A stretch of DNA of 64,000 nt from Variovorax paradoxus. GTDB lineage: Bacteria; Pseudomonadota; Gammaproteobacteria; Burkholderiales; Burkholderiaceae_C. The translations under genes and the position numbers were made by a program. The notes beneath the pieces are model-generated. The model had not been told where the DNA came from. It did no database searches and was given only the letters and a program-made list of their open reading frames with translations. Positions 39,650 through 41,579 of this stretch are shown here, one piece after another (the first letter of the stretch is position 1; the number at the start of each line of letters is the position of its first letter). The stretch covers positions 1-64,000 of the forward strand of contig NZ_JXQQ01000017.1 of NCBI RefSeq assembly GCF_000834655.1, written 5' to 3'.

Positions 39650-40768
39650 TCAACCGCGGCGGGCCTTGACGGCCTGCGACAGCGTCTCGAGCACCTGCAC
39701 CGAATCGTCCCAGCCGATGCATGCATCGGTGATGCTCTTGCCGTATTCGAGGCCCGAGATCTGATCCTTGCCCGGCGTGAACTTCTGGGCGCCCGCCTGC
39801 AGGTGGCTCTCGACCATCACGCCGAACACGCGGTTCGAGCCGCTGGCGATCTGACCCGCGATGTCCTTGGCCACATCGATCTGCTTCTGGTGCTGCTTGG
39901 AACTGTTGGCGTGGCTGCAGTCGACCATCAGCGTGGGCGGGAGCTTCGCGGCTTCGAGGTCCTTGCAGGCGGCTTCGACGCTGGCGGCGTCGTAGTTCGG
40001 CGCCTTGCCGCCGCGCAGGATCACGTGGCAGTCGCGGTTGCCGTTGGTCTGCACGATCGCGACCTGGCCGTTCTTGTGCACCGAGAGGAAGTGATGGCCG
40101 CGCGCCGCTGCCTGGATGGCGTCGGTGGCGATGCGGATGTTGCCGTCGGTGCCGTTCTTGAAGCCGATGGGGGCCGACAGGCCCGAGGCCAGCTCGCGGT
40201 GCACCTGGCTTTCGGTGGTGCGCGCGCCGATGGCGCCCCAGGCGATCAGGTCGCCGATGTACTGGGGCGAGATCACATCCAGGAACTCGCTGCCCGCCGG
40301 CAGGCCGATGCGGTTGATGTCGATCAGCAACTGGCGCGCGATGCGCAGGCCCTCGTCGATGCGGAAGCTCTCGTCCAGGTACGGGTCGTTGATCAGGCCC
40401 TTCCAGCCGACAGTGGTGCGCGGCTTCTCGAAGTACACGCGCATCACGATCTCGAGGGTGCCGGCGTATTTTTCGCGCTCGACCTTCAGGCGGCGGGCGT
40501 ATTCGAGCGCCGCGGCGGGGTCGTGGATCGAGCAGGGGCCCATGATCACCAGCAGCCGGTCGTCCTTGCCGGCCATGATGTTGTGGATGCTGCGGCGGGT
40601 GCCCTCGATGAGCGTTTCGACCGGCGTGCCGCGGATCGGGAAGAAGCGGATCAGATGTTCAGGAGGGGGCAGCACGTTGATGTCCTTGATGCGTTCGTCG
40701 TCGGTCTTGCTGGTTTTTTCGACGCTCGCATACCAGCTGTCGCTGGCCGGGGCAGTGTTCGTGCTCAT
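39650..40768 (-). CDS. aroG: 3-deoxy-7-phosphoheptulonate (DAHP) synthase, class I
   Basis: The enzyme condenses phosphoenolpyruvate and erythrose 4-phosphate, the first step of aromatic amino-acid synthesis. The 372-residue protein has the class I AroF/G/H motifs: a Lys-rich start (RIKDINVLPPPEHL), LLVIMGPCSIHDP, MRVYFEKPRTTVGWKG, and SPIGFKNGTDG with the Schiff-base-region Lys. Which aromatic acid inhibits it cannot be told. The ATG at 40768 follows AAGGAACAGC. Transcription appears controlled by the leader ORF and terminator just upstream (40807-40935). Confidence 0.93.
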   Translation of the reverse strand: MSTNTAPASDSWYASVEKTSKTDDERIKDINVLPPPEHLIRFFPIRGTPVETLIEGTRRSIHNIMAGKDDRLLVIMGPCSIHDPAAALEYARRLKVEREKYAGTLEIVMRVYFEKPRTTVGWKGLINDPYLDESFRIDEGLRIARQLLIDINRIGLPAGSEFLDVISPQYIGDLIAWGAIGARTTESQVHRELASGLSAPIGFKNGTDGNIRIATDAIQAAARGHHFLSVHKNGQVAIVQTNGNRDCHVILRGGKAPNYDAASVEAACKDLEAAKLPPTLMVDCSHANSSKQHQKQIDVAKDIAGQIASGSNRVFGVMVESHLQAGAQKFTPGKDQISGLEYGKSITDACIGWDDSVQVLETLSQAVKARRG

Positions 40769-40806: not shown

Positions 40807-40842
40807 AAAAAAACCGCCGGGGCTTGGGGCGCCGGCGGTTTT
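40807..40842 (-). terminator. Attenuator-type terminator in the aroG leader
   Basis: On the minus strand AAAACCGCCGG and CCGGCGGTTTTTTT form an 11-bp stem with an 11-nt loop and seven T. It lies between the aromatic-rich leader ORF (ends 40861) and the aroG ATG (40768), so it would stop transcription before the gene. A competing pairing is available: the leader segment at 40880-40892 reads CGGTTTTCGGCGG and can pair with the 5' arm, as an antiterminator. Confidence 0.82.
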
Positions 40843-40860
40843 GGAGGGTGTTCGTTTGCT

Positions 40861-40935
40861 TTACGCGCTCGCCTCTCGTCCGCCGAAAACCGGGAACCAA
40901 AAGTAGGCAAAAAAGTAAGCGCGGAGGGCGGACAT
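40861..40935 (-). CDS. Putative aromatic leader peptide of aroG
   Basis: The 24-codon ORF has five Phe, two Tyr and one Trp; residues 7-17 read YFFAYFWFPVF. It ends 19 nt before the terminator stem. Ribosome stalling at the aromatic codons in starved cells would expose the antiterminator pairing and open aroG. A likely promoter (TTGACC, 17 bp, GCTACA) puts the start only about 4 nt before the ATG, so the peptide would be read almost leaderless, as for rhizobial trpL. Part of the sequence resembles a TTTGCCTAC-type repeat found at about 330, so a chance ORF is possible. Confidence 0.6.
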   Translation of the reverse strand: MSALRAYFFAYFWFPVFGGREASA

Positions 40936-40945
40936 AGGGGCGGAA

Positions 40946-40974
40946 TGTAGCACGGAAAATAAAGACCCGGTCAA
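40946..40974 (-). promoter_or_regulatory. Sigma-70-type promoter of the aroG leader
   Basis: Minus-strand TTGACC (40969-40974) and GCTACA (40946-40951) are separated by 17 bp. The -35 differs from consensus at one base. The predicted start is near 40939. The ORF at 40861-40935 begins just after it. Confidence 0.5.
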
Positions 40975-40996
40975 GCGGCCGGGTCCGGGGCGTGGT

Positions 40997-41533
40997 TTAC
41001 CGGTAGCCCGATTCGTTGGGGTTGTGAATGATCCAGATCAGGTTGCCGCTGGTGTATTCACCCATGCCGCCGCCCGCGAAGATCAGCCGCCCCTGGCCCT
41101 TGTAGGTCATCTCGAAACGATGGCGATCGCTGCCGAAATAGAACGGAATGAAGGCCTTGCCCGTCACGTAGGCACCCTGGTCGGTCGGCGCGCCGGCGAT
41201 GTCGGTGACTTGCTTGGCGCTCATGCCGATCTGCAGGCGGGTGAACTTGCTGTTGCGCGCGGGGTTGCCGGTGATTTCGCCTTCGTAGCCGTTCAGGCCC
41301 TTGACCGTGCGGCCGCTGCCGGCTTCGACCTTGGAGGAATCGGTCACGTTGCCCCGGCCGTCCATGCCGGCGCCGGAACCGCTGCGCGCCGAAGCCGCGG
41401 GTGCGGGGGCCGGTGCCGCCGCAGGCTGGCTGGCGCCGGCTCCGCCGCGCGATGCGCAACCGGCGCTCGCAAGCACGACCACGGCAGCCGCAGCCCACAG
41501 GGCCGCAGACGAATTGATCTTGTTGTTCCTCAT
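40997..41533 (-). CDS. BamE/SmpA-like lipoprotein of unknown role
   Basis: The 178-residue precursor has a lipoprotein signal with the lipobox SAGC (Cys at about 26), an Ala/Pro/Ser-rich linker and a C-terminal domain. That domain has the pattern FTRLQIGMSAKQVTDIAGAPTD typical of the BamE/OmlA fold. It is unlikely to be BamE itself, since it is larger and lies away from the expected neighbours. The ATG at 41533 has a good AAGGAG site; an ATG 14 codons upstream gives a poor signal peptide. tldD ends 46 bp upstream on the same strand. Confidence 0.75.
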   Translation of the reverse strand: MRNNKINSSAALWAAAAVVVLASAGCASRGGAGASQPAAAPAPAPAASARSGSGAGMDGRGNVTDSSKVEAGSGRTVKGLNGYEGEITGNPARNSKFTRLQIGMSAKQVTDIAGAPTDQGAYVTGKAFIPFYFGSDRHRFEMTYKGQGRLIFAGGGMGEYTSGNLIWIIHNPNESGYR

Positions 41534-41579
41534 CGAATGCTCCTTCCTTGTTTGTGAAGGAGCGCAGCTTAACAAGCCT

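Follow-up and report, generated by a model that had tools for sequence, protein, structure and literature searches.

The aroG gene of the Variovorax paradoxus DNA analysed here encodes 3-deoxy-7-phosphoheptulonate (DAHP) synthase, the enzyme of the first step of the shikimate pathway. As judged from sequence comparison, the region before it is very probably a transcription attenuator of the ribosome-mediated kind, by which expression of DAHP synthase would follow the availability of aromatic aminoacyl-tRNAs; we put the probability of this reading at roughly nine in ten.

The aromatic leader ORF and terminator upstream of aroG

The following elements were located in the window, i.e., the whole stretch of 64,000 nucleotides that was analysed.

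40944-40952, minus strand: extended -10 element TGC-TACATT (TGTGCTACATT), ending 8 nt before the leader ATG
40861-40935, minus strand: leader peptide ORF MSALRAYFFAYFWFPVFGGREASA, 24 codons plus stop, with counterparts in relatives
40894-40917, minus strand: aromatic run TAC TTT TTT GCC TAC TTT TGG TTC (YFFAYFWF), proposed stalling site
40880-40886, minus strand: segment 2 (UCGGCGG), antiterminator 5′ arm within the leader ORF (conserved core and covariation)
40872-40875, minus strand: GAGG, 5′ strand of the second antiterminator helix (predicted fold and species-swap test)
40844-40847, minus strand: CCUC, 3′ strand of the second antiterminator helix (predicted fold and species-swap test)
40832-40838, minus strand: segment 3 (CCGCCGG), common to antiterminator and terminator (fold and covariation)
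40807-40842, minus strand: intrinsic terminator with an 11-bp stem, AAAACCGCCGG...CCGGCGGUUUU, and a T run (seven T) at 40813-40807
39650-40768, minus strand: aroG, DAHP synthase gene (TIGR00034, 1.5e-161, above cut-off)

An earlier note on this DNA had described a 24-codon minus-strand ORF with eight aromatic residues, an 11-bp terminator with seven T between this ORF and aroG, and a pairing of the leader with the 5′ arm of the terminator. The ORF is indeed present (40935-40861), with eight F/Y/W residues among its 24 codons, the terminator folds as claimed (z = -3.01 for the fold of 40807-40870), and the antiterminator pairing is possible in the predicted fold and covaries among relatives. 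The short ORF thus contains a run of codons for the very amino acids made by the downstream pathway, and an intrinsic terminator separates it from the structural gene. Its eighth aromatic residue, F17, is peculiar to the window copy, most same-genus leaders having Ser at this position. No other ORF of 9-50 codons in the 64 kb reaches 6 or more aromatics in 10 residues, and no comparable aromatic ORF (9-50 codons, ≥6/10) was found in 20 dinucleotide shuffles of the window.

The same note had cautioned that the aromatic run may be repeat-derived. A separate inverted repeat, CTTTTGCCTAC...GAAAAGTAGG, lies at 337-375 of the window and has 10 bp in common with the leader, which is the point in favour of a repeat or chance origin. 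On the other hand, the aromatic stretch CTTTTTTGCCTACTTTTGG occurs only once in the 6.9-Mb genome, even with up to 2 mismatches allowed, and therefore the 10-bp match is a coincidence and a derivation from the repeat is refuted. Since, in addition, 122 such leaders stand before aroG, we regard a repeat-derived or chance sequence as a negligible prospect.

Distribution of the leader among relatives

Two collections of loci were compared. The first consists of 130 aroG upstream regions, scored for an aromatic ORF followed by a terminator, and holds some genomes twice owing to two DAHP synthase genes (L010/L051, L001/L050, L060/L072, L070/L098, L086/L099). The second is a scan of the best 80 of at least 592 matches, in which the CCGCC/GGCGG stem and the segment 2 core were additionally required. 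In the first set, the aromatic ORF and the terminator are found in 66/130 regions, namely at 32 of the 33 same-genus aroG orthologues and in 34 regions outside the genus, spread over 13 families (the window's own and 12 others). The same-genus exception is L015 (G025:C2), from one Variovorax genome, whose aromatic run has one T too many, so that the leader is frameshifted; this may be a sequencing error or a loss. In the second scan, the architecture precedes aroG at 56/80 loci, with carriers in Polaromonas, Acidovorax, Ramlibacter, Hydrogenophaga, Comamonas, Limnohabitans and Rhizobacter, as well as in Cupriavidus lacunae, Burkholderia, Paraburkholderia, Caballeronia, Massilia, Rugamonas and Janthinobacterium. 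The closest AroG among these best 80 of at least 592 matches is that of Variovorax sp. Root318D1 (97%). Altogether, the leader was absent or the test failed at about half of the 130 first-set loci and at 24/80 loci of the second scan. The latter include Polynucleobacter, Thauera, Azoarcus and Methylotenera, the AroG copies found in C. necator UYPR2.512 and C. pampae, three near misses (L173, L219, L228) and one locus without upstream sequence (L165).

The aroG upstream regions L121 (G165) and L148 keep a CCGCCAG...CTGGCGG terminator without an aromatic ORF and are apparently, as far as their sequence indicates, decayed attenuators. Before the second, 58%-identical DAHP synthase gene no leader was present in the two genomes checked (L050, L051).

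A covariance model of the leader, R1, was searched in 160 genomes of the order. All 36 matches of at least 65 bits lie directly before AroG, and the next match scores 40.3 bits. Of 37 same-genus genomes, 34 have a match of at least 85 bits, and the other 3 are those in which no full-length AroG orthologue was found; in the window's own genome the next listed matches (27 bits) cover the terminator only. A class-wide scan of 274 genomes, among them the window's genome and two of its family, revealed the leader in two genomes of one family outside the order, in both cases before a 357-aa protein that is AroG by its sequence. These genome scans used stricter filters, and weak copies may be missed.

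Conservation of the aromatic codons

The pooled leaders number 122, of which 118 are unique. Phe is encoded in all 118, Tyr in 112 and Trp in 90, while 87 hold all three. As a control for the choice of ORFs, we used the 175 loci with at least 200 nt of upstream sequence (L035-L131 and L152-L231), a sample that includes misses and paralogues and is nearly all from outside the genus. Here, an ORF with at least 6 aromatics in 10 residues occurs in 85 loci on the sense strand and in 1 on the antisense strand, and in 0-1 loci in each of ten shuffles; with the threshold lowered to 5 aromatics in 10, the corresponding figures are 94, 5 and 2-13. Within the runs of the 118 leaders, 809/1180 in-frame codons are aromatic vs 248 and 191 in the other two frames, and 716/718 TTN/TAN codons end in a pyrimidine; these two counts are descriptive only, as the ORFs were picked for aromatic content, and the control is the 175-locus comparison. 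Outside the run the peptides differ between families, as illustrated by MSAKFYFYFFWHLKPLADREG (a Caballeronia) and MYTRAAHWFFFGFFLPLAEGIDRRC (another family), and the sequence in which F, Y and W follow one another varies as well, with aromatic codons interchanged among leaders (MSAKFYFYFFWHL, MYTRAAHWFFFGFF, MLRTAPYFFWFWY).

The position of the run relative to segment 2 is confined to a narrow range. A GGCG(G/A) core is found beyond the run in 66/66 first-set leaders, although these were chosen without requiring it, and in 64 of them the last aromatic codon starts 10-20 nt before the core; the distances in the other two are 8 and 3, the latter in the window, where it is F17, past the run, that is counted. 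Across the pool of 118, in which codons within about two codons of the core are left out, the last codon of the run lies 10-20 nt from the core with a mode of 12 (47/118), and the window has its core 12 nt past the first base of the run's last codon. Judged by the size of the ribosome footprint, this spacing is such that a ribosome stalled on the regulatory codons would leave segment 2 free.

A narrow distance between run and segment 2 suits any stalling mechanism, including a sequence-specific arrest peptide that senses a free aromatic amino acid and not tRNA charging, for which TnaC is the model. We consider such a peptide highly improbable here: the peptide diverges and its aromatic codons are interchanged, and the regulated gene is biosynthetic, so that stalling is expected with shortage. 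The reading of tRNA charging by a run of aromatic codons remains the preferred one.

Covariation of antiterminator and terminator

The 5′ arm of the terminator, CCGCC(G/A)G, is also the pairing partner of the segment 2 core with its flanks, so that antiterminator and terminator are mutually exclusive. At the antiterminator pair next to the core (j+5), 65 of the 118 leaders have C-G and 29 have T-A, a degree of pairing reached in 0/20,000 permutations, while at pair j+6 covariation did not exceed chance in the same permutations of 118 leaders. In an alignment of 51 sequences (A2), 93.8% of the antiterminator cells are paired and 21 are double-change cells; 0/500 shuffles were as high and slid versions of the helix gave at most 4, while the number of antiterminator pairs with a double change (2) was not above shuffles (252/500 as high). 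The A2 terminator has 94.7% paired cells and 28 double-change cells, and the columns without variation are those of the start codon, of the core of segment 2 and of the terminator.

The pairing was also examined by exchanging strands between species, using 51 representatives less than 80% alike. No swap out of 20,000 was as good as the species' own segment 2-3 duplex, and for the second helix alone the own pairing was better on average than 20,000/20,000 swaps; in an earlier set of 39, swaps as good numbered 0/20,000 for the whole duplex and 125/20,000 for the second helix. Permutations and swaps do not fully correct for relatedness. Most of the covariation signal comes from a single pair and from the second helix. 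In answer to the question that the earlier note had left to orthologous leaders, the 13 sampled families of the order have retained an aromatic ORF, a terminator and the alternative pairing, with covariation.

These observations bear on two other explanations. The first is a ligand- or protein-binding leader, such as a riboswitch or a TRAP-like element, in which the ORF would be incidental. Such elements, too, act through a terminator/antiterminator pair; however, the invariant columns of A2 mark the start codon, the core of segment 2 and the terminator, the reading frame and the aromatic identity are kept, and no Rfam family matches at gathering score in the window or in 15 other loci, the best sub-threshold match at the leader being Thr_leader with 16.7 bits vs 55 (E = 1). 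We therefore give this explanation hardly any weight. According to the second, the locus is a small-protein or small-RNA gene of its own, making a functional hydrophobic peptide or an RNA acting in trans, with the hairpin as its 3′ end and aroG separately promoted. The compact unit with its own promoter and terminator would fit such a gene, and attenuator leaders can also act in trans, as described for S. meliloti trpL (PMC7298713). Yet the peptides diverge between families outside the run and change the order of F, Y and W, a lone terminator needs no competing helix whereas here the competing helix covaries, and every strong R1 match (36/36) precedes aroG. This makes an independent gene improbable, if somewhat less so than a binding leader, and the architecture of transcription attenuation proposed in the earlier note is supported by the kept ORF, the terminator and the covarying pairing, from which we infer the regulation.

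Predicted folding states

The folding of the 51 representatives was predicted with parts of the RNA masked to mimic the position of the ribosome. In the stall mask, pairing is allowed from 10 nt downstream of the position where the last aromatic codon begins, or from 1 nt before the core. Under this mask, which frees the RNA just past the stalled ribosome, and before segment 4 has been transcribed, 51/51 are predicted to form the antiterminator. The terminator is predicted in 51/51 when the mask extends 13 nt beyond the first stop-codon base, a mask that by design keeps segment 2 from pairing. When nothing is masked, the terminator has the lowest predicted energy in 49/51, and it is still the minimum in 43/51 with the stall mask and segment 4 present. 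In constrained energies, the terminator is better by 4.0 kcal/mol on average, the 2:3 pairing being more stable in 7/51. A count in which the antiterminator was more stable in 42/51 was discarded, as it compared unequal stretches. Nor do we claim a thermodynamic default for the untranslated leader, given that the fair constrained comparison favours the terminator.

As the terminator is the minimum even under the stall mask, antitermination in these models must be kinetic, the antiterminator winning by forming first. The antiterminator of the trp attenuator likewise wins in this way. On the other hand, the 1:2 pause/protector hairpin of the textbook trp sub-type is not conserved in the aroG leaders: it is better than shuffled in 25/51 representatives, which is the chance level. 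The window copy does have a 1:2 hairpin of its own (-15.5 vs -12.5 kcal/mol shuffled). The attenuator therefore belongs to the wider ribosome-mediated kind only and not to the trp sub-type.

Promoter and predicted transcript start

The earlier note had placed a TTGACC/GCTACA promoter directly before the leader. Its downstream half holds: an extended -10 element stands just before the ATG in 33/33 same-genus loci, as TGCTACATT in 28 and as TGCTAGAGT or TGCTAAAGT in 5, and across the 118 unique leaders TGnTAnnnT ends 6-9 nt before the ATG in 71, against 0-2/118 at five control positions. This -10 was absent at this spot from the Burkholderia-type leaders of the 80-locus scan. TTGACC, 19 nt from the -10, is found in only 7/33 same-genus loci, and among the 71 leaders with an extended -10 only 7 show a -35-like match (at least 4/6 bases, spacing 16-18 nt). 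Its role as a conserved -35 was thus rejected, and the leaders have no conserved -35.

The window also contains, at 40956-40985, an inverted repeat GACCCGG...CCGGGTC followed by TTTATTTT, which overlaps TTGACC; repeat and T's are probably the terminator of the upstream gene. That gene (40997-41575) has a weak BamE-like match below cut-off.

With the -10 ending as close as 8 nt to the ATG, a leaderless or nearly leaderless mRNA is probable, and for the 71 leaders with an extended -10 the natural reading would be a predicted start on the ATG or a few bases from it. A Shine-Dalgarno-like 4-mer precedes the leader ORF in 6/118 cases and aroG in 94/118, any candidate aroG start being counted. For S. 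meliloti trpL and C. glutamicum ilvL (PMC7298713, PMC11857589), which are Trp and branched-chain leaders, transcripts are described that start on the leader's start codon or a single nucleotide from it; the start is reported there and predicted for the aroG leader. In B. cenocepacia, 82 short 5′ UTR transcripts have been reported (PMC5688073).

Proposed mechanism

Comparison of the sequences shows the aromatic codons, their narrow spacing and two exclusive, covarying helices, and likewise the terminator, the promoter position and the link to aroG. As to where transcription starts, how the leader is translated, where the ribosome stalls and what each amino acid does, we infer the following course. 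Judging by the promoter position, transcription would begin on the leader ATG or no more than about 3 nt from it, and a ribosome would load on the leaderless mRNA. When Phe-, Tyr- or Trp-tRNA is scarce, this ribosome would stall in YFFAYFWF, leaving the segment 2 core free to pair with segment 3 once the latter is made; the antiterminator so formed would block the pairing of segment 3 with segment 4, and RNA polymerase would continue into aroG. When aromatics are plentiful, the ribosome would cross segment 2, which lies within the ORF, and halt at the stop codon just past it; segments 3 and 4 would then pair and transcription would terminate at the U tract.

The composition of the runs is best explained if the leader reads the supply of Phe, Tyr and usually Trp together. 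Going beyond this, we tentatively propose, at odds clearly below even, a cumulative sensor of the three aromatics at the committed step, with a leaderless mRNA and an antiterminator arm inside the ORF, in which occlusion by the ribosome would replace the 1:2 hairpin and which, in much of the Burkholderiales, would take the place of DAHP synthase control of the TyrR/TrpR type. If so, untranslated leader RNA would read through and not super-terminate. In C. glutamicum, where the ilvL transcript begins a single nucleotide from the leader ATG, losing the ilvL start codon lowered expression (PMC11857589), and by analogy this would speak against the read-through variant.

Comparison with known attenuators

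In the E. coli pheL-pheA and trpL-trpE systems, a run of regulatory codons and an antiterminator competing with a terminator precede a biosynthetic gene for the same amino acids. The aroG leader resembles them in its codon run, its antiterminator/terminator pair and the same-pathway gene that it precedes (compared partly from the description in PMC11802643). Unlike them, it stands before the gene of the common first step, one leader covering up to three amino acids, and it has segment 2 inside the ORF, no conserved 1:2 hairpin and a probably leaderless mRNA.

Attenuators of DAHP synthase genes are already in print for Corynebacterium and Acholeplasma. In C. glutamicum aroR-aroF, a leader with Phe and Tyr codons precedes a DAHP synthase gene (Neshat et al., 2014, via PMC11802643), and Phe limitation causes ribosome stalling and more transcription (PMC11802643). 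As described there, the aroR run is Phe-Tyr-Phe and unaffected by Tyr availability, whereas 87/118 aroG leaders hold F, Y and W; moreover, that system belongs to an unrelated phylum and is likened here by its description. The Acholeplasma uORFC-13-1, upstream of aroF, combines a uORF with Phe codon(s) and a terminator, for which attenuation was proposed (PMC8632094). It is described there from Acholeplasma and environmental sequences only, and its description includes an RBS and one or more Phe codons, while the aroG leaders have a long mixed aromatic run and mostly no Shine-Dalgarno sequence. For E. coli aroF an attenuation-type control has been hypothesised (PMC8632094, citing a 1980 paper), and aroF and aroH of this organism are described as responding to TyrR and TrpR (PMC11802643, PMC5343134). 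Our literature search found no description of an aroG attenuator for Burkholderiales, where an earlier mention, e.g., in subscription surveys, is possible; the element is apparently undescribed there. The combination of a mixed aromatic run, a probably leaderless start, an antiterminator arm within the ORF and no conserved protector hairpin appears unusual from the sequences compared.

A different aromatic leader was observed at three loci: L262 (G153:C20:48230-48373, minus strand; YFYWY) before an ORF for a 204-aa protein, L264 (G170:C6:38247-38374, plus strand; YYWY) before one for a 179-aa protein, and L269 (G166:C1:1424305-1424450, minus strand; YFYWY) before one for a 168-aa protein. In each case a terminator-like inverted repeat follows the leader and the downstream protein is uncharacterised, without a Pfam match above cut-off; by its sequence this leader looks like an aromatic attenuator of an uncharacterised gene.

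Significance

DAHP synthase is the entry to aromatic synthesis, and in the 13 sampled families an RNA switch appears to do the job of TyrR and TrpR. This switch would read up to three amino acids with one ribosome, in a range of bacteria that includes Burkholderia, Caballeronia, Cupriavidus, Massilia and Comamonas. The alignment and the covariance model can be used for annotation, and the element may help to engineer hosts like Cupriavidus and Variovorax for the production of aromatics. Finally, more than 100 natural variants are at hand to test how the timing of attenuation is achieved by a leader that is probably leaderless.
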